The notes under the pieces were generated by a model that saw only the letters and a program-made list of their open reading frames with translations, was not told the origin of the DNA and ran no database searches. Shown piece after piece: positions 9,201 through 35,603 of a stretch of 64,000 nucleotides of DNA. This DNA comes from Corynebacterium epidermidicanis (GTDB taxonomy: Bacteria; Actinomycetota; Actinomycetes; Mycobacteriales; Mycobacteriaceae), in assembly GCF_001021025.1 (NCBI RefSeq), contig NZ_CP011541.1, forward strand, positions 2,046,001-2,110,000, given 5' to 3'. Made by a program: the position numbers and the translations under genes. Position 1 is the first letter of the stretch; each line of letters begins with the position of its first letter.

Positions 9201-9208
9201 ACAAAACT

Positions 9209-9471
9209 GGGTTAAGTAAAGAGAAGTGTGTCTCTGATGCGTGTTTTCCGCAGCGTAGTGGCCCTAAACTCGGTTGTTATTGTTCGTTGGGAGCCGTAGC
9301 TCGCTCGATGTCGTCGCTTCGGTGTAGTCGGACTACCGCTGCGGGATTATATTCATTAAAAAACGCTGCTCTACGTAGTCGGACTACGCCGAAGCGACGA
9401 CATAGCACTTGTGCAGCACACCCGCACGGCCAGCGACACACCGACGAAACACACTGTTCTTTACTTAACCC
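9209..9471 (+). mobile_element. 263-bp MITE, copy 1
   Basis: A non-coding element with terminal inverted repeats. The left end is GGGTTAAGTAAAGAGAAGTG and the right end, reverse-complemented, starts GGGTTAAGTAAAGAACAGTG. It is flanked on both sides by the 8-bp direct repeat ACAAAACT (9201-9208 and 9472-9479), a perfect target-site duplication. Internally, 9308-9336 and 9375-9403 form a second inverted repeat (27 of 29 positions) containing GTAGTCGGACTAC. The centre is AT-rich. It encodes no transposase, so it must be moved in trans. Two further copies of identical length lie at 29815 (inverted) and 35333. Confidence 0.92.
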
Positions 9472-9508
9472 ACAAAACTACCCAGCCAGATCAACGCGAC
9501 AAACAACA

Positions 9509-9542
9509 AAAGCCTCGAAGCACAACCGTGCTCGAGGCTTTA
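9509..9542 (-). terminator. Terminator of tRNA-Gly
   Basis: AAGCCTCGA...GCAC/AACC/GTGC...TCGAGGCTT forms a strong hairpin directly downstream of tRNA-Gly on the minus strand, with A residues on the left giving a U-rich tail. Confidence 0.85.
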
Positions 9543-9549
9543 AAATTGG

Positions 9550-9621
9550 AGGGAATGACGGGAATCGAACCCGCGTCACCAGCTTGGAAGGCTGGGGTAA
9601 TAGCCACTATACGACATTCCC
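9550..9621 (-). tRNA. tRNA-Gly (anticodon UCC)
   Basis: A 72-nt cloverleaf on the minus strand. Acceptor GGGAATG pairs with CATTCCC. The anticodon stem CCAGC/GCTGG encloses loop CTTCCAA with anticodon TCC. The T-arm is GCGGG-TTCGATT-CCCGT. Confidence 0.93.
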
Positions 9622-9832
9622 ATTCGCAAATTGCTTATGCAACTATAGCGCAGATCATTCATTGGGCCAAAACTGCCGGTAGATCAATTTTGAAACCAGC
9701 GACCCGTTGCTGCCCATTCATGTATATCCACGACAGGCGCCAGTTATTAAATACCAAATGAATCCGTTCTGTTATCTAAATGTGTCATTTTTGATGCAAG
9801 ATTCGAAGATGTGGCCACTAAAATCGGAGGTC

Positions 9833-10054
9833 ATGCAACCGAAAATCATCGACGCCGATTCCGGTCACGAACTATGGACTGCCACCGAATGCGCAACGTT
9901 CTCGGAAACAGCCCGGGGCACGTTTACTAGTTACGCTGGGCGAGGCCGGGCACCGAAACCCGTCGCGAAGCTGCACGGCCTGACTTTGTGGGACTGTGAA
10001 GACGTCAAAAACTGGAGCGCCGAGCGTAAAGCCAACAAGTCGGGGCAAGATTAG
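9833..10054 (+). CDS. Small helix-turn-helix protein
   Basis: A 73-aa protein starting MQPKIIDADSGHELWTATEC. The segment ELWTATECATFSETARGTFT followed by VAKLHGLTLWDCEDVKNW resembles the small MerR/excisionase-like DNA-binding helix-turn-helix family (HTH_17 type): 'W.AtEcA.f.g.....T...Y..RGRAPKPV.......W...dV..W'. The start is ATG 9833 because TAAAAT (9819-9824) sits 8 nt upstream, suiting a leaderless transcript; in-frame starts exist further upstream. A hairpin terminator follows. It could be a free-standing regulator or a relic of an integrated element. The exact function is unknown. Confidence 0.65.
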   Translation: MQPKIIDADSGHELWTATECATFSETARGTFTSYAGRGRAPKPVAKLHGLTLWDCEDVKNWSAERKANKSGQD

Positions 10055-10079
10055 CCCGGCGAAAACACACCGTTTGTTT

Positions 10080-10113
10080 GGAGAAGGAACTTTTCCTTCT
10101 CCTTTGTCGTTTT
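10080..10113 (+). terminator. Rho-independent terminator
   Basis: GGAGAAGGAA (10080-10089) and TTCCTTCTCC (10093-10102) form a 10-bp stem followed by TTTGTCGTTTT, downstream of the small HTH gene. Confidence 0.8.
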
Positions 10114-10156
10114 GAAGGTGTTGAACTATCCACTCTAAAACCGGGAGCCACACTCG

Positions 10157-10966
10157 ATGATCGGCCTAGTCCTCATTTTCCTCGCCATAGGCCTTGGCGT
10201 TTTTGCTATCAACAAGCTGTCTGCGGGCAACTCAAAGAAGCAACAAGCGGCTCAGTTTGCGGACGCGATCGCTGACGCTCGCCGCTGGAATGAACGCCTC
10301 GGCTCCCAGGTTCTGAGCCTCGCCGGCTCCGACCAGGCCTCCTCACAAGCGCTTGCCGACGCCTCCGAACGCTTCAACGCTTCATCCTCCCAGCTGAGCA
10401 CCGCTCAGACTGTGAAGCAGGCCGAACTCGCCCGCGAGTCGGCACTCGAAGGCCTGCATTACGTTAATGCCGCGCGGGAAATCATGGGGATGCCAGCAGG
10501 TCCTGAGCTGCCTCCACTCGAAGGCCAACGCGCGGCCGGCAAAGTCACTGAGCAGCGCACAATCGAGTTTGAGGGTAAGCAAATCACCGCTTCCCCACAG
10601 GCAACTCCTTATGCCAACCACTACTACCCTGGCGGCATGGTGGCGGGCCGCCCCGTTCCCGCTGGCTGGTACTCCGAGCCGTGGTGGGCATCGGCACTGC
10701 GTTCCGGCCTGTGGACAGCCTCCAGCGTGATGATGTTCTCGATGATGTTCAACGGCATGTCCGGCGTCGGCTACAGTGCCCAAGCCTTCGAAAATGGCTA
10801 CGGAGACGGGTACCAAGATGGCCTGGAGGCCGCTGGTGGCGATGCTGCCGGTATCGAAGGCGGCGATGTGGGAACTGGCGAAGTCGACGGTGGCGATGGT
10901 GGCCTCTTCGATTTCGGTGGCGACTTCGGTGGCGGAGACTTCGACCTCGGCGGATTCGACTTCTAA
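10157..10966 (+). CDS. DUF1542-like membrane-anchored protein with Gly/Asp-rich tail
   Basis: A 269-aa protein with one N-terminal membrane segment (LVLIFLAIGLGVFAIN, residues 4-19). A helical Ala/Gln/Ser-rich region follows (residues 25-120), then a proline- and tyrosine-containing stretch. A second hydrophobic patch (SALRSGLWTASSVMMFSMMF) precedes an acidic, glycine-rich tail (GGDFGGGDFDLGGFDF). This architecture matches corynebacterial proteins annotated as DUF1542 family. The function is unknown; the tail pattern suggests surface exposure or a low-complexity interaction region. It starts at ATG 10157 and converges on rpiB, with a hairpin between. Confidence 0.7.
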   Translation: MIGLVLIFLAIGLGVFAINKLSAGNSKKQQAAQFADAIADARRWNERLGSQVLSLAGSDQASSQALADASERFNASSSQLSTAQTVKQAELARESALEGLHYVNAAREIMGMPAGPELPPLEGQRAAGKVTEQRTIEFEGKQITASPQATPYANHYYPGGMVAGRPVPAGWYSEPWWASALRSGLWTASSVMMFSMMFNGMSGVGYSAQAFENGYGDGYQDGLEAAGGDAAGIEGGDVGTGEVDGGDGGLFDFGGDFGGGDFDLGGFDF

Positions 10967-10985
10967 GCCCTCACCGATACGACAA

Positions 10986-11017
10986 GACCCCATGCCCTGG
11001 ATCTAGGGCATGGGGTC
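10986..11017. terminator. Hairpin between convergent genes
   Basis: GACCCCATGCCCT (10986-10998) and AGGGCATGGGGTC (11005-11017) give a perfect 13-bp stem with a 6-nt loop between the DUF1542-like gene and rpiB. The T-tract is weak on both sides. Confidence 0.75.
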
Positions 11018-11035
11018 AAGCTTTGCTAAAAATGT

Positions 11036-11509
11036 CTACTCTGCCGGTAGTGCAGGAGCGATGCCGGTCTTTTCGTAATCGGCAAGGATATCGATGCGAC
11101 GCTGGTGACGTTCCGCACCAGACCATTCCTGATCCAAGAAGGCGTCGACAATAGCCAGCGCTTCTTCTTTCGAATGCATACGGCCTCCGAGACCGATGAG
11201 CTGTGCATTGTTGTGCTCGCGAGCTAGTCGAGCAGTTTCCGGCGACCAGGCCAGCGCGCAGCGCGCACCCTTGACCTTGTTGGCGGCGATCTGCTCACCA
11301 TTGCCGGAGCCACCTAGCACGATCCCTAGCGAACCCGGATCGTTGACGGTGCGAGACGCAGCCTCAATGCAGAAGGCAGGGTAATCGTCGTCGGCATCGT
11401 ACGTGTGAGCACCGCAGTCGATAACTTCGTGTCCATTGGCTTTGAGGTGCTCGGCAATAACGTTCTTCATTTCGAACCCAGCATGGTCCGCTCCAAGATA
11501 TACGCGCAT
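11036..11509 (-). CDS. rpiB: Ribose-5-phosphate isomerase B
   Basis: Interconverts ribose-5-phosphate and ribulose-5-phosphate in the non-oxidative pentose phosphate pathway; 157 aa. LacAB/RpiB family features are MRVYLGADHAGFEMKN at the N-terminus, HEVIDCGAHTYDADDDYP, and the phosphate/base region GGSGNGEQIAANK. In that region the actinobacterial type uses Glu as catalytic base, as in M. tuberculosis. LAREHNNAQLIGLGGRM follows. The start is ATG 11509; a longer open frame to 11584 has no homology. TAGACT (minus strand, 11517-11522) ends 7 nt before the start, consistent with a leaderless mRNA. Confidence 0.95.
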   Translation of the reverse strand: MRVYLGADHAGFEMKNVIAEHLKANGHEVIDCGAHTYDADDDYPAFCIEAASRTVNDPGSLGIVLGGSGNGEQIAANKVKGARCALAWSPETARLAREHNNAQLIGLGGRMHSKEEALAIVDAFLDQEWSGAERHQRRIDILADYEKTGIAPALPAE

Positions 11510-11631
11510 GGCTCCCAGTCTAGCCGACGTCGAAAAGTTGGCATTAGTCACAAAATCAAACTTTAGTTGGACTCCGTACCCCACCCCTCGCTAACGTGAG
11601 CTTCATCAGCAAACAAAGGAAGTAGTTAGCT

Positions 11632-12852
11632 ATGTCACATGCGCCAGTCGTGCGCACCGTTCGGCACGACATCAATACGAAGCCGTTCATCGTGATTTGG
11701 GAGGTAACCCGGGCGTGCGCCCTGGTCTGCAAGCACTGTCGCGCAGATGCCCAGCACAAGCCGCACCCCAACCAGCTCAGCACCGAACAAGGCAAGGCCC
11801 TGCTTGCCAACTTGGCAGCCTACGACAAGCCCAAACCACTGGTCGTACTCACAGGTGGTGACCCGTTCGAGCGTGATGATCTCGTGGAACTCACCCAATA
11901 CGGCACAGAGCTCGGCCTGAACATTTCCCTCTCCCCCTCGGTGACACCTCGGCTCACTCCAGAGCGCATCCACGCCCTGCGGGAAGCAGGTGGAAAGGCC
12001 ATGTCGATGTCGCTGGACGGCGCAACCGCAGCAACCCACGACGCCTTCCGTGGTTTTTCCGGGACGTTTGATCAAACGCTAGCCACCGCACCGATCATTA
12101 ACGAGGCTGGATACCGCCTCCAGATCAACTCCACGCTCACCAAAACAAACATCCACGAGGCCCCGTCCCTACTCAAAACGGTCATCGAAATGGGTGCGAA
12201 AATGTGGTACGTGTTCTTTCTCGTCCCTACCGGGCGCGGGGCGGCCCTCAACGCCCTCGACCCGCAGGAGCGCGAAGACGTGTTGCATTGGCTTGCCGAC
12301 GTCTCCGACCGTATCGCCATCAAGACGACAGAAGCACCGCAATACCGACGCGTCGTCATCCAGAACCAAAATGGGGTTGCTTACGAAGGTAGTCCGCTCT
12401 ACCACGAGTTGACGGCCAAAACGACCGAATTATTAGGCGAACGCCCGGCGCGTCCCCGCCCGCCACGTGCACCAATGGCGGTGAATTCGGGTTCAGGGTT
12501 CGCGTTCATTGACCACGTGGGCGATGTCTACCCCAACGGTTTCCTACCACTGCACTGCGGAAACGTCACTAAGCAGGACTTCCACGACATCTATACACAT
12601 TCGCCTGTCTTTAAGCTGCTGCGCGATCCCGATCACTGGCACGGAAAGTGTTCGGTGTGCGAATTCCACGATGTTTGTGGCGGTTCTCGGTCCACCGCGT
12701 ACGCTCTCACCGGCGACATCAGCGCGTCCGACCCCACCTGTGTGTATGTTCCACCTGCTTGGAGCGGAACCGAAACAACTGGGACAGCTCGCACTGTGGA
12801 GATTCCGCTCTCCTCGCCGCGGTCTGCGGAGGCGACTGCGGCCACCCAATAG
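11632..12852 (+). CDS. Radical SAM/SPASM protein, TIGR04053-like
   Basis: A 406-aa radical S-adenosylmethionine enzyme. The [4Fe-4S] motif is the CX3CX2C set in TRACALVCKHCRA (residues 29-41). VLTGGDPFERDDL provides the GGxP-type SAM motif. A C-terminal SPASM-type auxiliary cluster region is marked by the cysteines in LPLHCGNV and HGKCSVCEFHDVCGGS, with a further Cys in DPTCVYVPP. The pattern fits the TIGR04053 group, related to the haem-modifying NirJ/AhbD type and to peptide-modifying enzymes. No small precursor peptide gene or haem gene is adjacent, so the substrate is open. The start is ATG 11632, preceded by AAGGAAG. Confidence 0.85.
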   Translation: MSHAPVVRTVRHDINTKPFIVIWEVTRACALVCKHCRADAQHKPHPNQLSTEQGKALLANLAAYDKPKPLVVLTGGDPFERDDLVELTQYGTELGLNISLSPSVTPRLTPERIHALREAGGKAMSMSLDGATAATHDAFRGFSGTFDQTLATAPIINEAGYRLQINSTLTKTNIHEAPSLLKTVIEMGAKMWYVFFLVPTGRGAALNALDPQEREDVLHWLADVSDRIAIKTTEAPQYRRVVIQNQNGVAYEGSPLYHELTAKTTELLGERPARPRPPRAPMAVNSGSGFAFIDHVGDVYPNGFLPLHCGNVTKQDFHDIYTHSPVFKLLRDPDHWHGKCSVCEFHDVCGGSRSTAYALTGDISASDPTCVYVPPAWSGTETTGTARTVEIPLSSPRSAEATAATQ

Positions 12853-12914
12853 CAGATGCGCTAATATGAGCTTCTTCCCTGCCCCATCAGCAGCCATGTG
12901 AGGAGCTCATCAGC

Positions 12915-13640
12915 GTGCGTCGCACCGTTATTTCCCTGCTCACCGTCGTTTCGGTAACCCTAGTGGGAGGCACGCAGGCCTGCGCCAGCGCCCTGAGTTC
13001 GCAGGGCACTATCCCTGCCAGCGTCGGCACTGGCGACGCCCCTGGCATCACTCCTAGCGCCAGCCCGGCGTCGCAAAGCATGGCGGCACTCAATGCTTTG
13101 CCTGTGAAGGGTCGGGCGCCGAAAACCGGTTACAGCCGCGAGAAGTTTGGGCAGGCGTGGAGCGACGACGTTGTGGTGGAGTTTGGGCACAACGGTTGCG
13201 ATACTCGCAACGATATTTTGCGCCGCGATCTGACTGGCACCATCCTGAAGGAGGGCACGCGCGGGTGCGTGGTGCTCAGCGGCATCCTGCATGACCCGTA
13301 CACCGCCACCGAGATCGCTTTTACCCGCGGAAAGGCCACGTCCAGCGCCGTTCAAATTGACCATGTGGTCGCGCTTTCCAATGCGTGGCAGACCGGAGCA
13401 CAGCAGCTGAGCGACGACCAACGCCGAAACCTGGCCAACGATCCACTCAATCTACTAGCAGTCGACGGGGCTGCCAACCAACAGAAGGGCGACAGAGATG
13501 CCGCCACGTGGCTCCCTCGCAATAAGGCGTTTAGATGCACTTACGTAAGCCGCCAGGTCGAGGTGAAAACCAAGTACCAGCTGTGGGTCACTGCACCAGA
13601 AAAGGAAGCTATCGGCCGGATTCTGGCACAGTGCCCGTAA
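12915..13640 (+). CDS. Secreted HNH-family nuclease (DUF1524/GmrSD C-terminal type)
   Basis: A 241-aa protein with an N-terminal signal peptide (MRRTVISLLTVVSVTLVGGT, cleavage near ACASA). After a Ser/Pro linker, residues 70-241 form the nuclease domain. The HNH-type signature is VQIDHVVALSNAWQTGA, followed by LANDPLNLLAVDGAANQQKG and a terminal Trp-rich region. This is the DUF1524 fold seen in extracellular nucleases and GmrSD. Four cysteines in the mature part (CDTRND, GCVVLS, FRCTYV, AQCP) could form two disulfides. The start is GTG 12915 with AGGAG upstream. It probably degrades environmental DNA. No immunity gene or DNA-uptake gene is next to it. Confidence 0.88.
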   Translation: MRRTVISLLTVVSVTLVGGTQACASALSSQGTIPASVGTGDAPGITPSASPASQSMAALNALPVKGRAPKTGYSREKFGQAWSDDVVVEFGHNGCDTRNDILRRDLTGTILKEGTRGCVVLSGILHDPYTATEIAFTRGKATSSAVQIDHVVALSNAWQTGAQQLSDDQRRNLANDPLNLLAVDGAANQQKGDRDAATWLPRNKAFRCTYVSRQVEVKTKYQLWVTAPEKEAIGRILAQCP

Positions 13641-13647
13641 AAGTTAC

Positions 13648-14262
13648 CTAGTCGAACTTCGGCGACTCGGTACGGCTGCGCTTGATTTCGAAGAAAGAAG
13701 GGAAACTTGCCAGCCCGACGGCGTGGTCAAAGATTCGACCGGCTTCCTCGCCACGTGGGATTCGAGTAAGCACCGGGCCAAAGAAAGCGGTATCCCCAAA
13801 TTTCAGGACCGGTGTTCCGACATCGTCGCCCACCTCAGCCATGGCGCTGCCGTGGAACTCACGCAGCGCGTCATCCCACTCAGTAGTGTTAGCAACTTCA
13901 GCTAACTCTGCAGGTAGCCCAACTTCAGCGAGCGCTGCTGGGATGAGATCGTCATAGCCACCAAAGCCGGAACGTCCGCCGTTTCCACCAGGATGGATAG
14001 CGGTTCCCAGTGCAGTGTAGAGCGCATCGACTTTGTCTGGATGTTCGGTGGCGACAGCCGCGAACACGCGCGCGGGACCCCAGTTCGCTTCCATCTTCTT
14101 CATGTAGTTGGGGTCGAGGTCACGGCCGTCGTTGAGCACAGCCAGCGACATAGGTACCCATTGCACCTCCACGTCACGAACTTGCTCGACCTCTTTGATC
14201 CATCGTGAGGTGACCCAGCAAAATGGGCAGGACACGTCGAACCAGAACTTAACCTTTTCCAC
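13648..14262 (-). CDS. DsbA-family mycothiol-dependent oxidoreductase (Rv2466c-like)
   Basis: A 204-aa thioredoxin-fold protein. The active site CPFC in FWFDVSCPFCWVTSRW matches the position of CPWC in M. tuberculosis Rv2466c, a mycothiol-dependent nitroreductase of the DsbA/FrnE group. The conserved GDDVGTPVLKFGDTAFFGPV (cis-Pro loop) and RIPRGEEAG are also seen, and the C-terminus FFEIKRSRTESPKFD closely resembles Rv2466c. The start is GTG 14262, preceded by AAGGAG at 7 nt. It diverges from pepN, as in C. glutamicum. It is cytosolic, with no signal peptide. It converges with the HNH nuclease gene with only 7 bp between. Confidence 0.9.
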   Translation of the reverse strand: MEKVKFWFDVSCPFCWVTSRWIKEVEQVRDVEVQWVPMSLAVLNDGRDLDPNYMKKMEANWGPARVFAAVATEHPDKVDALYTALGTAIHPGGNGGRSGFGGYDDLIPAALAEVGLPAELAEVANTTEWDDALREFHGSAMAEVGDDVGTPVLKFGDTAFFGPVLTRIPRGEEAGRIFDHAVGLASFPSFFEIKRSRTESPKFD

Positions 14263-14457
14263 GCGGTACTCCTTAAGGTAGATGTGCGTTTTCCGGCCCC
14301 ATTGTAGGCCCGCCCACACAAAGTTGTGCGCGCTTTTCTCTTCGCAAAACTCCCAGCACTTGCGGCAGCAACGGGTAGTAGTTTCGTGTTCGTGCCCACA
14401 CTAGTAAGTTTGCAGTAGGCAAATCACATTTCTTTTCCATTTGAAAGGACCCTTAAC

Positions 14458-17037
14458 TTGACGTCGATTAATTTGACCAGGGCCGAAGCTCAAGAACGTT
14501 CTGCCATGCTGCGCACGCAGCATTATGACATCACCCTCGATCTCACCCAGGGAGAGGAAAGCTTCGGCTCCCGGACCGTCGTAAAGTTTGAGGTTACTCA
14601 GGCTGGCGATACTTTCATTGACCTGCGGGCGTCGGAAGCTACGGCCGCCCTCAACGGTGCCGAACTGCAGTTTTCCTATGACCCCGAAACTGGAATTCCA
14701 CTCACTGGCCTCACTCCGGGCGAATACGAGCTCGTCGTAGACGCCACCATCCCCTACTCGCACACAGGTCAGGGGCTCCACCGTTTTACTGACCCAGCGG
14801 ACGGTAAACCATACCTGTACACACAGTTTGAAACCGCAGACGCTAAGCGAATGTTCGCCTGCTTCGATCAGCCAGATCTCAAGGCAACCTACTCAATTTC
14901 TGCGTTGACGCCAGCGGACTGGAAGTTCATCACCAACGCGGCGGCAACTAGCTCCGTGGAAGGTGGATACCTTCACCACACCGCCGAGGTTGACTACCTG
15001 CTCTCCACCTACCTCGTTGCCGTATGCGCTGGACCTTACTTCGAGGTGCGCGACGTATGGCGTGGCCAGCTGACTCACCACCCGGAGACCCCAGGTGACC
15101 AGCCACACGAGGTGGAAATCCCGATGGCGATCTACTGCCGCGAATCCATCGCGGAATCTCTCGATGCGGACCGGCTCTTCACCGAGACGAAGCAGGGCTT
15201 TGATTGGTACCACCGCAACTTCGGCTACGCCTACCCGTTCGGCAAGTATGATCAGCTTTTCGTTCCGGAATTCAACATGGGCGCGATGGAAAACGCCGGT
15301 TGCGTGACCTTCCGCGATGAGTACGTGTTTACTTCCAAGGTCACGCGCTACCGCTACGAACGTCGATGCGACACCGTGCTGCACGAAATGGCGCACATGT
15401 GGTTCGGAGATTTGGTCACCATGCAGTGGTGGGATGACCTCTGGCTTAACGAATCCTTCGCAACCTGGTCTGCCGCGATCTCCCAAGCCGAGGAAACCGA
15501 GTACGACACCGCTTGGGTCACTTTCGCAAACGTAGAGAAGTCCTGGGCATACCAGCAGGACATGCTGCCTTCGACCCACCCCATCACAGCTGACGCCACC
15601 GACATCGAAACTGTCGAGCAAAACTTTGACGGCATCACCTACGCCAAGGGGTCTTCGGTGCTCAAACAGCTGCAGGCCTATGTTGGACGCGAGGCATTCT
15701 TGGCCGGGGTGCGACGTCACTTCGCTCGTCACGCTTTCGGCAACGCTACTTTCGATGACCTGCTCGGCGCGTTCGCGGAAGCCTCCGGCCGTGATCTTTC
15801 CGGCTGGGCAGATCAGTGGCTCAAGACCACCGGCGTCAACCGGTTGTCCCCGCAGTTTAGCGTCGAAAACGGCAAGTACACGTCGTTCGCAATCACACAA
15901 TCCGGCGCACAGCCCGGCGCGGGAGAGCTGCGCACGCACCGCATTGCAGTCGGCCTCTACAAGCTTGTCGACGACCAGGTGGTACGCGTCCACCGCGAAG
16001 AGCTCGACGTTGCTGGTGAATTAACCGAAGTCGCCAACCTGATTGGCAAAGAAGCCGCTGACCTGGTTCTGGTCAATGACGACGACCTCACCTACTGTAT
16101 CCTCGGCCTCGATCCGGCATCCCTAGATTTCGTGGTGGAAAACATTGGCCGCATCGCGGATCCCATGCCACGCACCTTGTGCTGGTCCGCGGCATGGGAG
16201 ATGACACGCGCCGGCGAGATGAAGGCCCGCGACTTCGTCGCCTTGGTAGGCGCTGGTGCTCTGGCTGAAACCGAGATTGCAGTGCTGGAGCGGGTGTTGT
16301 TGCAGGCGACAACAGCAGTTTCTGCCTACGCGGATCCAGTGTGGGTAGATGCGACCGGCCGAGACATGCTGGCTGATATCTTGCTCGATGGTGTGGAGAA
16401 CGCCGAGCCAGGATCGGACTTCCAGTTGGCGTTTGCACAGGCACTGGCCAAGGTACGTCCGAACGCCCGGGCTATTTCCTACTTCGAGTCGATTCTGGCT
16501 GGCCAGGCACCTGCTGGGCTGGTTGTCGACGCTGACCTGCGTTGGTGGGCGCTGACCGCCCTGATCGCGGCCGGTGAGATCGCCAATCCAGCTGAGGCTA
16601 TTGCTGCCGAGCAGCAGCGTGATCCTTCCGCTGCCGGCCAGAATTCCGCTTGGCGAGCCACCGCGGCCATCAAAACCGAGGAGAACAAGGCATCCGTATT
16701 CGCTGAGCTCACCGATCTATCGAAGCCGCTGTCAAATCTGGCAACTCGCCACAAAATCGAGGGCCTCAACTTTGCCGGTGCTGCCGACAGTTTGCAACAG
16801 TTCAACGAGCGCTACTTCGCCCTCGCTGACAAATTTTGGGCACAGGCCTCCTCCGAGGTGGCGCTGGCAACGCTGAACGGCATTTTCCCAAGCTGGGATA
16901 TTTCCGAGGAAGGCCTGCAGCGTGCCGACGACTTCTTGGCATCAGACCACGTCTCCGGTTTGGTGCGTGTGGTCTCGGAGAACCGTGACCGCATTGCCCG
17001 CGCGCTGCGCAACCGCAAGATCGACGCAGCTGGCTAA
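14458..17037 (+). CDS. pepN: Aminopeptidase N (M1 family)
   Basis: Cytosolic zinc aminopeptidase that trims N-terminal residues from peptides produced by Clp and other proteases; 859 aa, normal for actinobacterial PepN. The exopeptidase motif GAMEN appears near residue 278. The zinc site is HEMAH with Glu in WLNESFATW 18 residues later. The N-terminal beta domain includes FACFDQPDLKATY. The C-terminal ERAP1-like helical domain follows. The start is TTG 14458 (protein MTSINLTRAEAQERS), with AAAGGA upstream. A strong hairpin follows the stop. Confidence 0.97.
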   Translation: MTSINLTRAEAQERSAMLRTQHYDITLDLTQGEESFGSRTVVKFEVTQAGDTFIDLRASEATAALNGAELQFSYDPETGIPLTGLTPGEYELVVDATIPYSHTGQGLHRFTDPADGKPYLYTQFETADAKRMFACFDQPDLKATYSISALTPADWKFITNAAATSSVEGGYLHHTAEVDYLLSTYLVAVCAGPYFEVRDVWRGQLTHHPETPGDQPHEVEIPMAIYCRESIAESLDADRLFTETKQGFDWYHRNFGYAYPFGKYDQLFVPEFNMGAMENAGCVTFRDEYVFTSKVTRYRYERRCDTVLHEMAHMWFGDLVTMQWWDDLWLNESFATWSAAISQAEETEYDTAWVTFANVEKSWAYQQDMLPSTHPITADATDIETVEQNFDGITYAKGSSVLKQLQAYVGREAFLAGVRRHFARHAFGNATFDDLLGAFAEASGRDLSGWADQWLKTTGVNRLSPQFSVENGKYTSFAITQSGAQPGAGELRTHRIAVGLYKLVDDQVVRVHREELDVAGELTEVANLIGKEAADLVLVNDDDLTYCILGLDPASLDFVVENIGRIADPMPRTLCWSAAWEMTRAGEMKARDFVALVGAGALAETEIAVLERVLLQATTAVSAYADPVWVDATGRDMLADILLDGVENAEPGSDFQLAFAQALAKVRPNARAISYFESILAGQAPAGLVVDADLRWWALTALIAAGEIANPAEAIAAEQQRDPSAAGQNSAWRATAAIKTEENKASVFAELTDLSKPLSNLATRHKIEGLNFAGAADSLQQFNERYFALADKFWAQASSEVALATLNGIFPSWDISEEGLQRADDFLASDHVSGLVRVVSENRDRIARALRNRKIDAAG

Positions 17038-17061
17038 CTCAAGCTGGTTAGTCACATAATT

Positions 17062-17104
17062 AATGGCTCCGTCTCCGCTCGCATTGAGCAGGGTCGGAGC
17101 CATT
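17062..17104. terminator. Hairpin downstream of pepN
   Basis: AATGGCTCCG (17062-17071) pairs with CGGAGCCATT (17095-17104) between the convergent pepN and surface-protein genes; the loop is long. Confidence 0.7.
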
Positions 17105-17127
17105 TGTGTGGAGTGCTGCGTGACTGC

Positions 17128-24988: not shown

Positions 24989-25567
24989 CTAGGCGGAGTG
25001 CTGCGCCATCTCTGGCGAGTCCTCCCCCAGGCAATCCTGGTGTTCGGGATCGTCAAAAGGGGGCTCTTCCTCCGGCAGATCAGTCGCGGGTGCAGCTGCA
25101 GCCGACTCATTGACCGGTTCCGAAGCAGCTCCTTCCGCTGCCGTCGTAACCGTTACCAATTGGGCCTTGAACTTGGCGTCGAGCTCCTCCAGCATTTGTT
25201 TGCGTCGCTGTGGCCCGAATTCCGTCGCTACCACCATGTACTTATTCAAGTCCAAACCAATGTGGGTTGCTTTGACATAGGTCTTGAATTGGCGCTGCCC
25301 GTCTTGCATCCACTCGCTGGACATCAGGAATCCGGAAACGATAACGCTGCTGCCTTTCGCAGCAGACATGAAGGTGTTCATTCCGAGGTTGTTCCAGGCC
25401 TCAACTTCGATAAAGAGCTGGTTGTAGTTCTGCCAGTTTCCATTGCCATCCTGGCGCGCGCTGGAACAGGCCAAGCGGAACCGAACTACCTCGGCATCTT
25501 CGCTCACGCGTCGCTTAATGGGCTCGCTGACAATGTTGCCGGTCAAAGTGATTGGATATTGTGGCAT
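24989..25567 (-). CDS. Single-stranded DNA-binding protein paralogue
   Basis: A 192-aa OB-fold protein. MPQYPITLTGNIVSEPIKRR, VVRFRLACSSARQDGNGNWQ and FIEVEAWNNLGMNTFMSAAK match the SSB core. The C-terminus is unusual: the acidic run LPEEEPPFDDPEHQDC resembles the SSB tip (acidic-PPF) but is followed by 16 more residues. It lacks the Gly-rich linker of the main corynebacterial SSB, which I expect to be encoded next to rpsF elsewhere. The start is ATG 25567 with AAGGAG. Two perfect inverted DnaA boxes lie about 110 bp upstream. It may serve recombination, repair or competence. Confidence 0.88.
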   Translation of the reverse strand: MPQYPITLTGNIVSEPIKRRVSEDAEVVRFRLACSSARQDGNGNWQNYNQLFIEVEAWNNLGMNTFMSAAKGSSVIVSGFLMSSEWMQDGQRQFKTYVKATHIGLDLNKYMVVATEFGPQRRKQMLEELDAKFKAQLVTVTTAAEGAASEPVNESAAAAPATDLPEEEPPFDDPEHQDCLGEDSPEMAQHSA

Positions 25568-25676
25568 GGTTGTTCTCCTTTTGTGTGGTTGATGAGGCCG
25601 CAGCGAAAGCACGCGCTGCAGCCGTTGTCACCATGCCAGAAAGCAAGAAACCCGCCGCTGCTATCGACTCCGAGAA

Positions 25677-25700
25677 TGTGGATAACCGTGGTTATCCACA
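25677..25700. promoter_or_regulatory. Paired inverted DnaA boxes
   Basis: TGTGGATAA (25677-25685) and TTATCCACA (25692-25700) are two exact DnaA-box consensus sequences in inverted orientation separated by 6 bp. Together they form an almost perfect 24-bp palindrome. They lie between the SSB paralogue and the CopD-CtaG gene. Confidence 0.75.
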
Positions 25701-25753
25701 GAGGTTCTTCCCAGGGACGCGGAGGGCAGGGGCGGGCGTCGACAAGCTTTGCT

Positions 25754-27820: not shown

Positions 27821-27941
27821 GGCTTCTACCCTAACCGCTCATCAAGTTAATGCCGAAGTGGCACCACGAATACGATCTCCGCAAGGCTATGCGCTAGAAT
27901 TTTCTTGCTTGGTTACCGCTTCAACGGGCCAACCAAGAAGA

Positions 27942-28015
27942 CCCTCCTTAGCTCAGCGGATCAGAGCAGACGGCTTCTACCCGTAAGGTCGCAGGTTCGA
28001 ATCCTGCAGGGGGGG
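27942..28015 (+). tRNA. tRNA-Arg (anticodon UCU)
   Basis: A 74-nt cloverleaf. Acceptor CCCTCCT pairs with AGGGGGG and the discriminator is G. The D-arm is GCTCAGCGGATCAGAGC. The anticodon stem ACGG/CCGT encloses loop CTTCTAC with anticodon TCT. The T-arm is GCAGG-TTCGAAT-CCTGC. The IS30 element begins only 21 bp after its 3' end, leaving just CTTTTT as a downstream signal. Confidence 0.93.
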
Positions 28016-28036
28016 CTTTTTCATGAGAGGGTTTCA

Positions 28037-29698: not shown

Positions 29699-29814
29699 AG
29701 GAAACGGTTTGAGATTGTTCAGGAAACCTTGGTGTGCTCTGTTACAACATCAGTTCAACTAATGGGGAGCAGTTCACGTGAGCAGGGCTTTTGTTCTACC
29801 TCGGGGACATTCCC

Positions 29815-30077
29815 GGGTTAAGTAAAGAAAAGTGTGTTTCGTCGGGGTGTCGACGGCCGTGCGGGTTTGCTGCACAAGTGCTATGTCGTCGCTTCGGCGT
29901 AGTCCGACTACGTAGAGAAGCGTTTTTTAATGAATATAATCCCGCAGCGGTAGTCCGACTACACCGAAGCGACGACATCGAGCGAGCTACGGCTCCCAGA
30001 CAACAGTAAATACTGGCTTCGGGCCTACAACGCTGCGGAAAACACGCATCAGAGACACACTTTTCTTTACTTAACCC
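29815..30077 (-). mobile_element. 263-bp MITE, copy 2 (inverted)
   Basis: Same family and identical length to the element at 9209, in the opposite orientation. The left end is GGGTTAAGTAAAGAAAAGTG and the right end, reverse-complemented, starts GGGTTAAGTAAAGAAAAGTG. It is flanked by a perfect 8-bp target duplication ACATTCCC (29807-29814 and 30078-30085), so the insertion looks recent. It sits 116 bp after the IS30 element. No coding capacity. Confidence 0.93.
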
Positions 30078-30092
30078 ACATTCCCAGACATG

Positions 30093-30132
30093 CCGACTAC
30101 ACGGACCGGGTGTCTGCTGTCCGTGTAGTCGG
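30093..30132 (+). terminator. Strong hairpin, probable terminator
   Basis: CCGACTACACGGAC (30093-30106) and GTCCGTGTAGTCGG (30119-30132) form a perfect 14-bp stem with a 12-nt loop, followed by GTTCTTTCTCTG on the plus strand. Its parent gene is unclear because the region is rearranged. Confidence 0.6.
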
Positions 30133-30161
30133 GTTCTTTCTCTGTAGTTTTTGACTGTTTT

Positions 30162-30550
30162 CTATGCCACGAGCGGTGGGGCTCCTGGTCTACGCTTCGG
30201 GCTCCAGTCCGGCTGCTCTTCAGGAACCACATCGGGTTCTAGGCGGGTCCGCCGACCACCGTCAGGCGGGGTCGGGTCCGGGCCCTTGATAGGTGTGTTC
30301 GCCTCCACGCGGTCGAGGTAGGAACTGATCTTGGCCAGATTGGACGCGATCACGCCCAGGGCCGTCATCGCCCAGTGAGCGGCGAAGCCACGCACCAGGC
30401 TCCGGGTCCGGTTTCCGATACCGGCGGACAGATTCTTGATGTTGCTGTTCGAGCCCTCGCATACGTTTCGGAGGGTGCCGTAGATGTGGTCCCACTCCGG
30501 GGTTCCGAAGTCGGGCCTGCCCTGTCGGAACTTCTCCCCCTTAATGCTCA
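30162..30550 (-). pseudogene. 3' fragment of a transposase-like or conserved hypothetical gene
   Basis: The coding-like part reads GEKFRQGRPDFGTPEWDHIY, GTLRNVCEGSNSNIKNLSAG, then GNRTRSLVRGFAAHWAMTAL and an Arg/Pro-rich tail. This looks like the C-terminal end of a larger protein, plausibly a transposase or integrase-type nuclease (the E in CEGSNS could be the last acidic residue of a DDE set). The open frame continues upstream only into the A-rich promoter of the next gene (residues such as FLSFLFFLKL), which is not homologous coding sequence. No ribosome site or sensible start exists. I treat it as a truncated remnant. Confidence 0.55.
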
Positions 30551-30574
30551 TTCGACACGAACATCGCAGATCAG

Positions 30575-30624
30575 CGAGTTTTAAAAAAAATAAAAAAGAT
30601 AAAAAACAATACAAAAGGTAGAAT
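30575..30624 (+). promoter_or_regulatory. A-tract and -10 element upstream of the AAA ATPase
   Basis: A run of about 40 nearly pure A residues (30579-30616) precedes TAGAAT (30619-30624), 6 nt before the ATG. Such a tract is unlike the surrounding GC-rich DNA and would be strongly bent. Confidence 0.55.
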
Positions 30625-30630
30625 GGAGAC

Positions 30631-31797
30631 ATGCCAAACAAAAACCCATTCAAAGCAAGCTCCGGAACCACCCCACCACTTCTTGTCGGCAGGGACGACT
30701 ATATTGAGGACTTCACATATGCGCTGGACAACGGTCCGGGGACACATGAGCGAACTACCCTCATTACGGGTACACGAGGAATTGGAAAGACCGTATTGCT
30801 CAATCATTTTGGAGACAAAGCGCGGGAGCGCGGGTGGTTCCTGTTCGAGGAAACAGCCACACCCGGCTTTGTAAATCGCCTACGCGACCAGGTTTACCAA
30901 CAGATACGAACACTAGGAGAAGGTTCTCGCAAGACCTTAAAAGCGCTTAACCTCAACATAGCGACACTTGGGGGCGTGGGTGCAACCTTTGACACACTTC
31001 CAGATCACCTGCCAAATTACACACTGCGAATGGCGCTACAAGACCTACTCAACTTTCAGAAACAGCAGGCCACGCACATTCGACAAGAACCCAGCGGCAT
31101 TCTCATTACCGTCGATGAGCTCCACTACAACGTACTGGCAGAGACTCGTGACTTCGGAGCCGTCCTACAACATCTAACCCGCGACAATGAAAATATCGCT
31201 GTCGCGGTTGCAGGCATCCCTTCCTCAGTAAAACCCATTCTGGCGAGTAAAGAGGGTGAGAACCCGGTTACTTTTCTTCGGCGCACCAATAGAGTCGAAC
31301 TCGATAAGGTATCTACAGACGAGGTGCGGCGCGGCTTAGTTATACCTTTAGACGCCACTGATAAAAGCTGGGACACTGTCGCATTAAAAATGGCGATAGA
31401 CGCGTGTGGCGGGTATCCTTTCATGATCCAGCTAGTGGGCGACTGGTGTTTCCGATACTCAGAAACCAACACCATCACACCTGACGTGGCTCAAAAAGGC
31501 ATCGCAAAGGCACAACGAAAGCTAGGGCAGCTTGTACACGAGCCTGCACTCAACGACCTCTCGGACATTGACCGTACATACCTGCTTCACATGGCACAGA
31601 ATGAGGGAGAATCCTCAACTTCGGAAATCGCCGCGAAGCTAAAGAAAACAGTCCAATATGCAAATACCTACCGCACCCGCCTGCTTGAAGCTCAGCTAAT
31701 TCATCAGACTCGCCAGGGCTATGTAGACTTTGAGCTCCCATATCTCCGTGAATACCTCAGGGAACATGAAGCAAGTATGATACTCGATTACATATAA
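30631..31797 (+). CDS. Orphan AAA/Orc1-like ATPase
   Basis: A 388-aa ATPase of the AAA_16/Orc1-like group. Walker A is GTRGIGKT (residues 47-54), and Walker B is ILITVDELH (about residue 155). A sensor-type region follows (AVAVAGIPSSVKPIL). The C-terminal third looks like a winged helix: SDIDRTYLLHMAQNEGESST then SEIAAKLKKTVQYANTYRTR. It is shorter and more AT-rich than its neighbours and sits in an insertion zone with an IS and a MITE, so it was probably acquired horizontally. No partner gene is adjacent. Related solitary ATPases are found on actinobacterial plasmids and islands. The function is unknown; DNA binding or a defence/regulatory switch are possible. Confidence 0.85.
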   Translation: MPNKNPFKASSGTTPPLLVGRDDYIEDFTYALDNGPGTHERTTLITGTRGIGKTVLLNHFGDKARERGWFLFEETATPGFVNRLRDQVYQQIRTLGEGSRKTLKALNLNIATLGGVGATFDTLPDHLPNYTLRMALQDLLNFQKQQATHIRQEPSGILITVDELHYNVLAETRDFGAVLQHLTRDNENIAVAVAGIPSSVKPILASKEGENPVTFLRRTNRVELDKVSTDEVRRGLVIPLDATDKSWDTVALKMAIDACGGYPFMIQLVGDWCFRYSETNTITPDVAQKGIAKAQRKLGQLVHEPALNDLSDIDRTYLLHMAQNEGESSTSEIAAKLKKTVQYANTYRTRLLEAQLIHQTRQGYVDFELPYLREYLREHEASMILDYI

Positions 31798-32002
31798 AAC
31801 TATATTCCCATCTAAGAAATGACCTGCACATTAGAAGTAGGTAGAGCTCACCAACCGTATCCCTGCCCCACTCACATGGGATAAATCCGCCGGCCCCGTG
31901 GGATAGGCAGGTGCGCCGGGCGCGGTGGCTGGTGGTTGGTGCGCTGGGTCAAGCCCTCCATGACGAACCTTCACTTCGACTGTGTTCCCCCGGTGAGCTC
32001 AA

Positions 32003-32820
32003 CTACGACATTCCAACTGTCTGAGGCGCGTGGCGCTCTCCCCGGCTCACCAAAACCAACACCACCACGGCCACGGTGGCCATCGCCAAAAGCTTGCCCC
32101 ACAGCACGCCGGCAGTGTCACCAGAGGAATAGCTGGTCAGTGAGTCCAGGATGATTAGTGACACATTAGACGCCCCGTGCAGCACCGCGCTGCCAATGAT
32201 CGATTGCATCCGATTTGCCAGCAGAGCCAGCACTGCGCCAGAGGCGAGGTGGTTCACCCACATCAATCCATCAGCGGGCGCATGTATCGCGCCAAACAAG
32301 GGCACCGTCAGAGCAAATGCAATCACGCCGGACTTGACCCACCGACCAAAAGAACTGCGGCAGCCAAGCACGGAACAAAAGCTCCTTCCGCGAATGACAT
32401 CACCGGCGTGACCAGTAGGAAGCCGACCAGCATCCACATAGGAGTGTCCATGACCTCGGTGCCTAAGGGCTGCCAAGTCACCAACACGAATACTGACATT
32501 GTGGCCAGGGAAACCTGCAAGGAAATAATCAGCTGCCTGTTACGGGTACTCGGGATGGTGGGCGCCCACAATGGTTGGGGTATTGGGCGTCGGCCAGCGA
32601 CGCGAACCGCGAGAAGTACGGCCGGAACGATCGAAATGAAAGCGATGGCACCGCCTACCTGGTCAGAGTACTCGCCCGTCAGGGCATCGATACCGATCAT
32701 AAGCACGATCAGTGACAGCACGAACACCGCTAACAGCATTGCCAGTTCGGCGAAGGGACGCCACCACTGCCCAGGGTGAGAATCGCGAGCAAGCAAATGA
32801 AATTCTTCTTGAGCGTTCAC
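32003..32820 (-). pseudogene. CPBP-family intramembrane metalloprotease, frameshifted
   Basis: The gene starts at ATG 32820 (MNAQEEFHLLARDSHPGQWW) with hydrophobic helices, and breaks around 32385-32350. Removing one G from GAAGGAGC (near 32384) restores AEELLFRAWLPQFF, the EExxxR catalytic motif. Removing one T from the TTTT run at 32348-32351 then restores QFFGRWVKSGVIA. After that the frame continues to the other motifs, LFGAIHAPADG (FxxxH) and VLHGASNVSLI (HxxxN). Two single-base insertions about 35 nt apart therefore inactivate the gene at its active site. CPBP proteases process membrane proteins or act in self-immunity. Confidence 0.8.
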
Positions 32821-32841
32821 ATTTGTCGAGGCTCACAATAG

Positions 32842-33564
32842 TTAAGCCATCGCGCAGTGGCGCAGGCCCTCCACGATGTGTTCATTGCCCATCGGATCGC
32901 GGAGAATGTGCTGGGTGGCGTTCAGTTCGGCGAGTCGCCACCCTGGTTCGGTGTCAACAAGCCCCTCGAGTGATGCGAGTGGGTCGAAAGAATCGCCGAG
33001 CACCTGGTCAAGGCGCGCGGAAATCTCTTCACTCGTCGGCATTGGCGGTTCTTCATCGTCGAATTCCAAGATGAAGAGCCCGATGGAGCCGTCCGGGCCA
33101 ATCGGCACCTCATAGGCCAGGTATTCCCGACCCAGCAAACTGATTGCAGCGAAGCACACCTCGGTGCCGATGCGCGAAAGATCTGCACCGGAAACATCCA
33201 AGATCGGCGCATCGAAAGCCTGCAACCCGCGTTGCACGCCGGCAGCGCGGAGGGCGTGTGCGAAAGATGGTTCCACATTCCCCAGCGGTTTTTCAAGGGC
33301 CCAGGCCCACGTGAGGGTGTGACGATTGGCGTCGATAAGCGCCAGAGCATGGGCCGCAACCTTGAGCTTGCCTCGTGACCCTCGGAACACAATGTGGCTG
33401 CGCCGAGGCTTGAACTTGGCGGAGATGTCAGTACCAATGCGATCTTCAAACCAGCTCTTGAGCAGCTCGCGACGGACGCGATTGAACAGGCAGGTTTCGT
33501 GCGCGGTGTCCGAAATTTGGGATAACAGGGGGTCAGGGTCAGGCATGGCCTTAGTATGCTCCAT
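32842..33564 (-). CDS. Conserved protein, DUF6882-like
   Basis: A 240-aa cytosolic protein. The pattern LALIDANRHTLTWAWALEKP resembles the 'W.W.WA' core of DUF6882-type proteins. An acidic region (FILEFDDEEPPMPTSEEIS) and a C-terminal stretch with HILRDPMGNEHIVEGLRHC follow. The start is taken at ATG 33564 (MEHTKAMPDPDP) with GGAAAAG nearby; ATG 33546 is also possible, and the longer frame to 33651 is not supported. The function is unknown. It diverges from cmrA. Confidence 0.6.
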   Translation of the reverse strand: MEHTKAMPDPDPLLSQISDTAHETCLFNRVRRELLKSWFEDRIGTDISAKFKPRRSHIVFRGSRGKLKVAAHALALIDANRHTLTWAWALEKPLGNVEPSFAHALRAAGVQRGLQAFDAPILDVSGADLSRIGTEVCFAAISLLGREYLAYEVPIGPDGSIGLFILEFDDEEPPMPTSEEISARLDQVLGDSFDPLASLEGLVDTEPGWRLAELNATQHILRDPMGNEHIVEGLRHCAMA

Positions 33565-33697
33565 TTCTTTTCCCACAGCATAGCAAGCTGGCCGGAAAAC
33601 AGTAACTACTTTTCTGGCGATGCGGATGCGGCACGGGCGTCGAGAAGCCAACTAAGGTAGGACACGTCGATGAAATCAACCTTTTTAAGGAGCCGTC

Positions 33698-34501
33698 ATG
33701 GCACTGCCTCTCCCCTCCATGCACGCCCGCGCGCTGGTCACCGGCGCCAGCCAGGGCATTGGGCGCGCGATGGCCCGCGACCTCGCCGAGATGGGTCACA
33801 ATCTGATTCTGGTGGCGCGTCGCGAAGACGTCCTCAACTCGCTCGCTACCGAACTCGAAGAGCGTTTTGGCGTGACGGTGGAGGTCCGCGCCGTGGACCT
33901 GGCCGAGCACAACGCTCGCCGCGCGCTTATCGACGAGATCAGCTCCCGAGAAATCAACATTCTCATCTCCTCGGCTGGCATCGCCTCCTTCGGCCCCTTC
34001 AAAGATGCGGACTGGAACTACGAGCTCAACCAGTTCCATCTCAATGCCACCGCGTGCTTCGAACTCACCCACGCCGTGCTGCCAGGGATGCTTTCCCGAG
34101 GCCAAGGGGCGATTTGCAATGTCGGCTCGCTGGCCGGCGACATGGTGATTCCTAACAACGCCACCTATATCTTCACCAAGTCGGGCCTGAACAAGTTCAC
34201 CGAGGCGCTGCACTACGAACTGCGTGGCACAGGTGTGACCTGCACTCTGCTTGCCCCTGGCCCAGTTCGAGAGGCAGTTATTCCCGAGTCCGAGAAAACC
34301 ATTGTGGATCGGGTGGTCCCGGACGCCGTATGGACCACCTACGAATCCTGCTCCCGCGAGACCCTCGAAGCCATGGCCGCTGGACGACGTCGCGTCGTGC
34401 CCGGCCCGCTGGCCAAAGTGATGGAAGTGGTCACCAACGTCGCCCCGACACGAGTGATCGCACCGATCATCGGTAACTTCTACCGAAAGATGGGTGCCTA
34501 G
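33698..34501 (+). CDS. cmrA: Corynomycolate reductase CmrA (SDR family)
   Basis: A short-chain dehydrogenase (267 aa) that reduces the beta-keto group of newly condensed corynomycolate (on trehalose) to the mature hydroxyl form. Family features are the cofactor motif TGASQGIG (residues 15-22), NILISSAGIASFG, and the catalytic Ser in NVGSLAGDM with Tyr and Lys in NATYIFTKSGLN. Synteny is decisive: orn follows immediately, as with C. glutamicum cmrA (cg2717) and M. tuberculosis Rv2509-Rv2511. AAGGAGCC precedes the ATG. Loss in C. glutamicum leads to unreduced mycolates and envelope defects. Confidence 0.92.
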   Translation: MALPLPSMHARALVTGASQGIGRAMARDLAEMGHNLILVARREDVLNSLATELEERFGVTVEVRAVDLAEHNARRALIDEISSREINILISSAGIASFGPFKDADWNYELNQFHLNATACFELTHAVLPGMLSRGQGAICNVGSLAGDMVIPNNATYIFTKSGLNKFTEALHYELRGTGVTCTLLAPGPVREAVIPESEKTIVDRVVPDAVWTTYESCSRETLEAMAAGRRRVVPGPLAKVMEVVTNVAPTRVIAPIIGNFYRKMGA

Positions 34502-35137
34502 TTGACCGACGCCATCCCCCTCAAAAACGACCGGCTGGTCTGGATCGACCTGGAAATGACCGGCCTCGATCCGAAGCGACACGTCATTGTTGAAGTAGCA
34601 GCCCTCGTCACCGACGCTGAGCTGAACATCCTCGGCGACGGCATCGACCTCGTCATCCATGCCACGGAGGCAGAACTCGCGGAAATGGACGACTTCGTCC
34701 GCACCATGCACACCGACAACGGACTCCTCCCCGAAATCGAAGCCTCCACACTGTCGCTACAGGATGCCGAAGACGCCGTGCTCCAGCTCATCGAGGAACA
34801 CTGCCACCCCGATCACCCAGCACCACTGGCAGGGAACTCGATCGCCACAGACCGAACCTTCATCCGAGCCCACATGCCCCGCCTCGACGAAGCGCTGCAC
34901 TACCGCATGGTCGACGTCTCCTCAATCAAGGAACTAGCCCGACGCTGGTACCCGCGGGTGTACTTCGCACAACCGGAAAAGGGCATGTCACACCGAGCCC
35001 TCGCCGACATCGTCGAGTCAATCCGCGAGCTCGACTACTACCGACGCGCCATTTTCGTCCCGCAACCAGGCCCCACAACGAGCAGCGCGAACTCAGCTGC
35101 GACAGCCGCAAGCAAGGCCTACCAGCGGTTTTTGTAA
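34502..35137 (+). CDS. orn: Oligoribonuclease
   Basis: A DEDDh 3'-5' exoribonuclease that degrades 2-5 nt RNAs to mononucleotides; 211 aa. The exonuclease motifs are [10 protein letters not shown] (first Asp/Glu), [11 protein letters not shown] (second Asp), and [11 protein letters not shown] (His and last Asp). The start is TTG 34502, directly adjacent to the cmrA stop, so the genes are translationally coupled. The C-terminal extension ([20 protein letters not shown]) is Ser/Ala-rich and probably flexible. A tRNA-His gene follows 48 bp later. Confidence 0.97.
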
Positions 35138-35185
35138 AACGCGCACAGTGAGTTAATATGAGTTCCGCTGCGTTACCGCAGCAAT

Positions 35186-35259
35186 GGTGGCTGTAGTTCA
35201 GCTGGTAGAGCACCAGGTTGTGATCCTGGGTGTCGCGGGTTCGAGCCCCGTCAGCCACC
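35186..35259 (+). tRNA. tRNA-His (anticodon GUG)
   Basis: The cloverleaf includes the extra G-1 (35186) paired with discriminator C (35259). Acceptor GTGGCTG pairs with CAGCCAC. The anticodon loop TTGTGAT carries GTG. The T-arm is GCGGG-TTCGAGC-CCCGT. Confidence 0.95.
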
Positions 35260-35265
35260 CCAAAG

Positions 35266-35310
35266 AAACACCTCTTGAACTGCACTTTGTGTGAGTTGAG
35301 GGGTGTTTTG
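35266..35310 (+). terminator. Terminator of tRNA-His
   Basis: AAACACCTC (35266-35274) pairs with GAGGGGTGTTT (35298-35308) and is followed by TGTTTTG. MITE copy 3 begins 23 bp further on. Confidence 0.75.
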
Positions 35311-35332
35311 TTTTGCGCTGGTTTGTAGGTGC

Positions 35333-35595
35333 GGGTTAAGTAAAGAAAAGTGTGTCTCTGATGCGCGTTTTCCGCAGCGGAGTGGGCCTGAAGCCGTTAT
35401 TTATTGTGGTCTGGGAGCCGTAGCCCGCTCGATGTCGTCCCTTCGGTGTAGTCGGACTACCGCTGTGGGATTTATTTCATTAAAAAACGCTGCTCTACGT
35501 AGTCAGACTACGCCGAAGCGACGACATAGCACTTGTGCAGCACACCCGCACAGCCGGCAACACACCGACAAGACACACTTTTCGTTGCTTAACCC
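35333..35595 (+). mobile_element. 263-bp MITE, copy 3
   Basis: Third copy of the family, same orientation as copy 1 and again exactly 263 bp. The left end GGGTTAAGTAAAGAAAAGTG is intact; the right end carries two substitutions (GTTGCTTAACCC instead of TTTACTTAACCC). The flanking 8-mers are GTAGGTGC (35325-35332) and GCAGGTGC (35596-35603), a target duplication with one mismatch. This copy therefore looks older than copies 1 and 2. Confidence 0.9.
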
Positions 35596-35603
35596 GCAGG
35601 TGC

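Follow-up and report, generated by a model that had tools for sequence, protein, structure and literature searches.

REP (repetitive extragenic palindromic) sequences and BIMEs (bacterial interspersed mosaic elements) are dispersed intergenic palindromes in many copies, as is the hairpin unit described here. One published table lists the insertion sequence (IS) IS3503 together with IS1249 and IS256 (PMC8304765). Here we analyse a 263-bp repeat in a 64,000-nucleotide stretch of Corynebacterium epidermidicanis (the window; genome positions 2046001-2110000 of 2,692,072 bp on one contig), a miniature inverted-repeat transposable element (MITE) with IS3503-type ends and a hairpin of ~124 bp in its middle. 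The best explanation as a whole, to which we assign a probability of about 0.8, is an IS3503-type non-autonomous element carrying a separate, selected hairpin unit. The repeat would be a non-autonomous element of an IS3503-type IS (IS1249 group, IS256 family) in which the ~124-bp hairpin unit replaces the missing transposase gene, and a transposase supplied in trans would have recognised its ends and inserted it with 8-bp target duplications. The hairpin would be a separate, lineage-specific unit that exists without IS ends too, and after insertion purifying selection would have held the sequence of its arms more than that of the loop or the IS ends. The window holds three copies with the following parts (R1 is the hairpin model described below).

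9008..9131, + strand: B-type hairpin unit, 77 bp left of copy 1; RNA fold z = -8.7
9201..9208, no strand: target duplication ACAAAACT, left of copy 1; 8/8
9209..9471, + strand: MITE copy 1, 263 bp
9293..9417, - strand: A-type hairpin unit within copy 1; R1 match at genome 2055293-2055417; RNA fold z = -7.9
9472..9479, no strand: target duplication ACAAAACT, right of copy 1; 8/8
29807..29814, no strand: target duplication ACATTCCC, left of copy 2; 8/8
29815..30077, - strand: MITE copy 2, 263 bp
29869..29993, + strand: A-type hairpin unit within copy 2; R1 match at genome 2075869-2075993; fold z = -5.9
30078..30085, no strand: target duplication ACATTCCC, right of copy 2; 8/8
35325..35332, no strand: target duplication GTAGGTGC, left of copy 3
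35333..35595, + strand: MITE copy 3, 263 bp, with a degenerate right end
35417..35541, - strand: A-type hairpin unit within copy 3; R1 match at genome 2081417-2081541; fold z = -5.9
35596..35603, no strand: target duplication GCAGGTGC, right of copy 3; 7/8 against GTAGGTGC

Ends, copies and age of the repeat

A preliminary description of this DNA had placed three exact 263-bp copies here, with 8-bp flanking duplications and terminal inverted repeats, and our reanalysis agrees with it on coordinates and strands. All three window copies are exactly 263 bp long, the duplicated 8-mers match at 8/8, 8/8 and 7/8 positions, and the terminal inverted repeat spans 24 bp in the MITE consensus. The right end of copy 3 is degenerate and reads TTTCGTTGCTTAACCC, and by eye the B-type hairpin at 9008..9131 lacks clear MITE ends. 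So far as seen the element has no gene of its own, as had been claimed; open frames over copies 1 and 3 extend past the copy edges, and their gene status was not tested. The repeat is a MITE in that it is short, shows no transposase gene, has terminal inverted repeats and occurs in many copies with target duplications.

The ends of the repeat lead to a named IS. Their 17-base start is present in 22 of the 242 genomes of a genus set, the own genome included, and in several of these 22 it bounds ~1380-bp elements, the kind of IS with shared ends for which a search of other Corynebacterium genomes had been proposed. In one genome (G032) the 1380-bp element agrees at 100% with the part of C. jeikeium plasmid NC_003490.1 that carries the annotation IS3503, and the 394-amino-acid protein of the element matches the IS1249 family model NF033544 (E = 4.6e-153) and also Transposase_mut. 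The MITE consensus agrees with the IS3503 ends at 25/25 and 26/26 bp, and the last 45 bp of the MITE are 93% identical both to the IS right end of G043 and to the right end of a remnant in the own genome. Judged by these matches, the driver is to all appearances IS3503-type, of the IS1249 group of the IS256 family, and a transposase of this type would have acted on the MITE in trans. The earlier argument against IS30 and Tn3 as the driver holds; among the enzyme types then considered compatible, the IS256 type is the one that stands, and ISL3 and IS1595 were not searched after the match.

Target duplications accompany the same ends elsewhere in the genus. IS-sized copies carry 8/8 duplications in two of seven cases, and a 406-bp MITE of G027 with IS3503-type ends does so in all three of its copies, one of which lies at 209-614 of locus L220. 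No intact IS1249-group transposase was found in the own genome, only a decayed remnant in pieces with stops at 739387-740122. Further weak IS256-type matches in the genome are open frames of 452 and 254 amino acids (30-31% identity), and the 452-amino-acid frame belongs to an IS256-type IS with ends unlike those of the MITE. Because this remnant is the only transposase of the right group found and the other IS256-type IS has different ends, the MITE family is probably an orphan in this genome. Two copies, at genome 740144-740429 and 1749714-1749976, are without their first 22 bp and abut an inverted IS end instead. Pairs of IS3503-type ends also occur ~4 kb apart in G080 (622377-626532, 1520789-1524867 and 1531749-1535817), possibly as composite elements.

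A search of the whole genome, which the preliminary description had proposed, reveals a scale that it had missed: in the stretches analysed there are at least 51 copies with 200 or more aligned bp, a lower figure in that the first genome search scored 40 of 88 candidates. Duplications were tallied over the 38 copies in which both 14-bp ends match at 11/14 or better, dropping 13 of the 51. The length is exactly 263 bp in 24 of these 38, and the flanking 8-mers match at 8/8 in 14 copies, at 7/8 in six and at 6/8 or fewer in 18, where chance would be expected to yield 0.014 copies at 7/8 or better. With 18 of 38 copies at 6/8 or below, a good many duplications are decayed or gone; some copies scored below 8/8 (e.g. 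208708) reach 8/8 after a 1-bp shift of the edge. One nested copy (genome 1491036-1491298, 7/8 duplication) sits inside a related element, and its flanks, joined minus one 8-mer, read as the uninterrupted end of other copies, providing an empty site within the genome. Copies share a mean pairwise identity of 85.7%, and the closest pair reaches 95.4%; the spread of the family is therefore old. The recent transposition proposed earlier finds no support in these values, nor in a genome where the only transposase of the group that was found is decayed.

The impression of a new family has fared better. Across the remaining 241 genus-set genomes, with three candidates scored in each, the full-length MITE has no match, nor has it one in the plasmids or phages searched, and a literature search turned up no account of a Corynebacterium MITE of this kind; on these searches the family appears to be new. 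A structured RNA of a known family was rejected as an explanation: Rfam at its gathering score gives nothing matching over the MITE copies of the window, and at a relaxed threshold over five loci just far sub-threshold matches over the hairpins.

The internal hairpin unit

The MITE can be divided into three parts. Positions 1-77 match a short element of G073 at 78% (1-82 at 79%), and by eye that element continues into the beginning of a gene for a transposase; the whole left ~80 bp of the MITE may accordingly correspond to the 5′ end of the IS, to judge from this related element. The third part, positions 219-263, corresponds to the IS right end, and the middle, at ~85-209, is the ~124-bp hairpin, with 43-bp arms (85-127 and 167-209) and a loop of ~39. 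Model R1, built from ten hairpin copies without MITE ends and applied with 150 of 1193 candidates scored, matches 77 genome places after merging of strands. A MITE end lies within 160 bp at 55 of these places, which by position comprise 51 263-bp copies and four B hairpins beside MITE-end sequence, and at the other 22 there is none. Of these 22, three belong to the B type, and one place (432902) has a right flank that by eye looks like a MITE end, which makes 22 an upper figure; three stand together in tandem and an IS interrupts one, which leaves 17 independent A loci. The B subfamily has different core letters and was encountered at 16 places, seven of which belong to the 77, and by eye some B hairpins lie within longer elements that terminate in decayed IS ends. 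The MITE is a composite, a build that the preliminary description had missed, in which IS ends enclose a separately dispersed hairpin.

The hairpin could itself be a small REP-like mobile element that entered an ancestral IS by transposition and travelled with it from then on. Its length of 122-125 bp with identical limits in most copies would suit such an origin, as would the occurrence of both the A and the B subfamily with and without IS ends. A target duplication is absent by eye at the 22 stand-alone places, however, and the Y1 transposase (PF01797) has no match in the own genome, while five of 14 controls gave one, so that a system of REP sequences and REP-associated tyrosine transposases (RAYTs) was discarded. 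At one hairpin the neighbouring IS256-type IS is itself an insertion into the hairpin, and overall we consider a mobile hairpin doubtful. The insertion in question (L213, genome 2038135-2039583) is the IS with the 452-amino-acid open frame; it lies within a stand-alone hairpin, 9 bp are duplicated (TAGTCGGAC), and the 28-nt arms on either side of it are perfectly complementary. Because this IS lies inside the hairpin and is flanked by the duplication it arrived after the hairpin, and its transposase was rejected as the hairpin's driver. At another locus (L145, genome 104955-105626) three near-identical hairpins stand in tandem, with starts 298 and 249 bp apart.

Comparison of the two subfamilies shows paired arms. 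When 37 hairpins are taken together, A and B alike, stem pairing holds in 80% of cells, where slid structures give 29-46%, and the covariation score of 0.220 (0.047-0.076 when slid) is reached by none of 500 shuffles; the stems of the A and B subfamilies differ by compensated changes. The unit was met in the own genome only, both with R1 across the 242 genomes (14 candidates scored per genome) and with model R2 across 41 genomes (86 scored), and it has no match in plasmids, searches that could miss diverged relatives. The exact A and B core patterns give zero matches in the genome contigs and zero in the viral contigs searched.

The arms have changed less than the rest of the MITE. Over 51 copies, divergence from the consensus is 3.9% in region 103-206 against 11.6% in the ends, and this region is more conserved than the ends in 50 of the 51. 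The ends may partly carry old subfamily variation, and private changes are therefore the fairer count. With the arms of the model and two very diverged rows left out (49 copies), private mutations number 25 in 4212 cells of the arms, 25 in 1910 of the loop and 92 in 6320 of the ends, a 2.5-fold effect (arms below ends, p = 2e-5; below loop, p = 0.006). With all 51 copies the counts are 36/4381, 31/1988 and 91/6566, respectively, and the effect is 1.7-fold (p = 0.008 and 0.011). Loop and ends are alike in rate. Narrower stem limits (103-129 and 166-206), picked post hoc from the diversity profile, give 15/3332 and a 3-fold effect. Among 27 stem pairs in the 51 copies, 20 changes break the pair, seven produce a wobble and one double change is unpaired; such mostly pair-breaking changes speak against repair that used the opposite arm as template and in favour of selection acting on the sequence of the arms. 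As the arms hold fewer private mutations than the loop and the ends, we infer that they are under purifying selection on their sequence. The mutation pattern alone does not decide whether the structure matters.

Palindromic middles are common in MITEs, and a plain MITE with an inert middle would account for the same repeat, its hairpin stemming from a deletion joint and its low diversity from gene conversion among the copies or from the choice of regions. The 406-bp MITE of G027 contains an internal palindrome by eye, and the weaker protection of the arms when all 51 rows are counted with model arms would also be expected of such an element. An inert middle is nonetheless unlikely: the hairpin unit is found up to 22 times without MITE ends, and the low rate of private change tracks the arms and skips the loop, as long conversion tracts would not.

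Gene context and possible roles of the hairpin

Gene context was assigned with a simple codon-based gene caller, which left two of the 51 copies without a call. The 49 placed copies lie between 20 convergent, 25 co-directional and four divergent gene pairs, and none overlaps a called gene by more than 60 bp. In a 384-kb sample of sequence that includes the window, 11% of the intergenic bases are convergent, 63% co-directional and 25% divergent. The excess of convergent sites (20/49) has p = 1e-7 against 11% of bases and p = 3e-5 against 16% of gaps, and the shortage of divergent ones (4/49 against 25% of bases) has p = 0.005.

This enrichment at convergent genes would follow if the hairpin acted as a two-way terminator of transcription, perhaps a Rho-dependent one, and the MITE had carried it to gene ends. 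The strong symmetric stems agree with a terminator, as does the C-rich strand past the stand-alone hairpin in both directions; a T-tract terminator was not found in the three window copies, and the stand-alone A hairpins are co-directional in eight of 16 cases, with five convergent, two divergent and one undecided. A terminator is thus possible, at odds clearly short of even. Intrinsic terminators and promoters were likewise set aside as an account of the MITE, since the scan of the three copies gave no terminator-like site and a single promoter-like match, inside copy 2 at 29913-29940.

The stand-alone hairpins differ from the MITE copies in their surroundings. In all 19 that were used (the 22 minus two duplicates from the tandem array and the copy split by an IS), the left 150 bp are richer in G+T than the right (means 0.64 and 0.39), whereas 43 MITE copies tested show no switch (0.50 and 0.50; left higher in 23). 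On rounded values the drop in G+T exceeds 0.155 in 15 of the 19, and as a control it exceeds 0.15 at one of 38 middle points of long gaps. The switch reaches ~150 bp at 16 A hairpins and ~100 bp at 13 B hairpins, and A as well as C is depleted in it. Low-complexity flanks, G+T-rich on the left and C+A-rich on the right, are seen for example at genome 692036, 940132 and 2638699, without a common motif.

Three accounts of the flanks were examined and rejected. The commonest 6- to 8-mers of the flanks are no commoner than in shuffles, which disposes of a shared Chi-like motif. Pairing between the two flanks is not general, because just five of 16 loci reach z of -2 or lower (range 1.4 to -3.0). 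Convergent transcription as the sole cause fails as well, with ten of the 16 stand-alone A hairpins at co-directional or divergent pairs. The stand-alone hairpins could also mark breakage sites at which repeated cutting and resection left C-to-T changes on 3′-ended strands and so produced the switch from G+T to C+A. Breakage would fit the G+T-richer left flank within ~150 bp at 19/19 hairpins, the lack of a flank motif above shuffles and, at most loci, the lack of flank pairing beyond composition; the absence of a switch at MITE copies and the depletion of A along with C speak against it, and we regard breakage as quite improbable.

The 17 stand-alone A loci lean towards the start of the sequence record (mean relative distance 0.30, p = 0.014; p = 0.006 when the tandem array is counted three times), and MITE copies are evenly spread. 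The record probably starts at dnaA, as suggested by a sub-threshold Rfam match to an antisense RNA of dnaA over the first gene. One A-type hairpin (L144, genome 1548-1672) lies between the first two called genes, probably dnaA and dnaN.

The fixed length, the co-changed stems, the composition switch, the modest origin bias and the selection on the arms together prompt a tentative reading in which the ~124-bp hairpin would be a new lineage-specific functional genomic element, and the IS-derived MITE would have spread about fifty functional copies of it, many to gene ends. Its likeliest role may be that of a two-way structure at gene 3′ ends, for the transcript end or for RNA protection; because a T-tract is missing from the three window copies and some stand-alone sites are co-directional or divergent, we put this role forward as a suggestion, with the odds rather against it. 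Almost equally likely, the hairpin would serve a DNA-binding protein as its binding site.

A number of observations weigh against the explanation favoured here, a selected hairpin within an IS3503-type MITE. As to the ends, the other five of the seven IS copies have flanks that match at only 3-6 of 8 bases, duplications are absent altogether from the differently sized elements of G039, G073 and G183, and the own genome holds its IS1249-group transposase in pieces. As to the hairpin, two of five measures on the 37 hairpins (both-side pair changes and the number of pair types) are not clearly above shuffles, and with the ten A hairpins alone the covariation score is the one measure of five that stands out (3/500 shuffles). 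Private changes are uneven between the arms, 16 in one and nine in the other, region 83-102 is almost as variable as the ends, and the 27 stem pairs of the 51 MITE copies hold no compensated change. As to the role, besides the missing terminator-like sites, the gene calls come from our own simple codon model, whose initial version had one copy reach 61 bp into a called gene, and the convergent bias could stem solely from the removal of harmful insertions near promoters.

An IS3503-type MITE with a selected hairpin would make an orphan family tied to a named transposase, whose cross-mobilisation is directly testable. Its cargo looks selected while its ends decay, and the roughly fifty insertions amount to an experiment within one genome that could tell selfish spread from the spread of a useful part. 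Elsewhere in the window, a 72-bp palindrome at 39913-39984 has 36-bp arms that are 81% complementary and no loop, and one open frame of 2979 codons spans 48459-57398 on the - strand.

Comparison with known systems

The hairpin unit differs from REP/BIME sequences with their RAYTs in its length of ~124 bp and in a genome without a match to the Y1 transposase. The 406-bp MITE of G027 shares the ends of the 263-bp MITE and its 8-bp duplications, whereas nothing matches past 25-38 bp of the ends, and that genome has no match to the hairpin model (14 candidates scored). IS1249/Tn5432 belongs to the same group, and its ends, read from the same plasmid as IS3503, begin with the same GGGTTAAG; in contrast, end bases 9-14 differ (GGTCAA against TAAAGA), and the match to the MITE is a weak one of 27 bp only. 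IS3503 of C. jeikeium plasmid pB85766 is, at 1380 bp and with a 394-amino-acid transposase, a far longer element in which nothing inward of the ends matches the MITE, but its ends are those of the MITE consensus over 24-26 bp and some of its copies carry 8-bp duplications.

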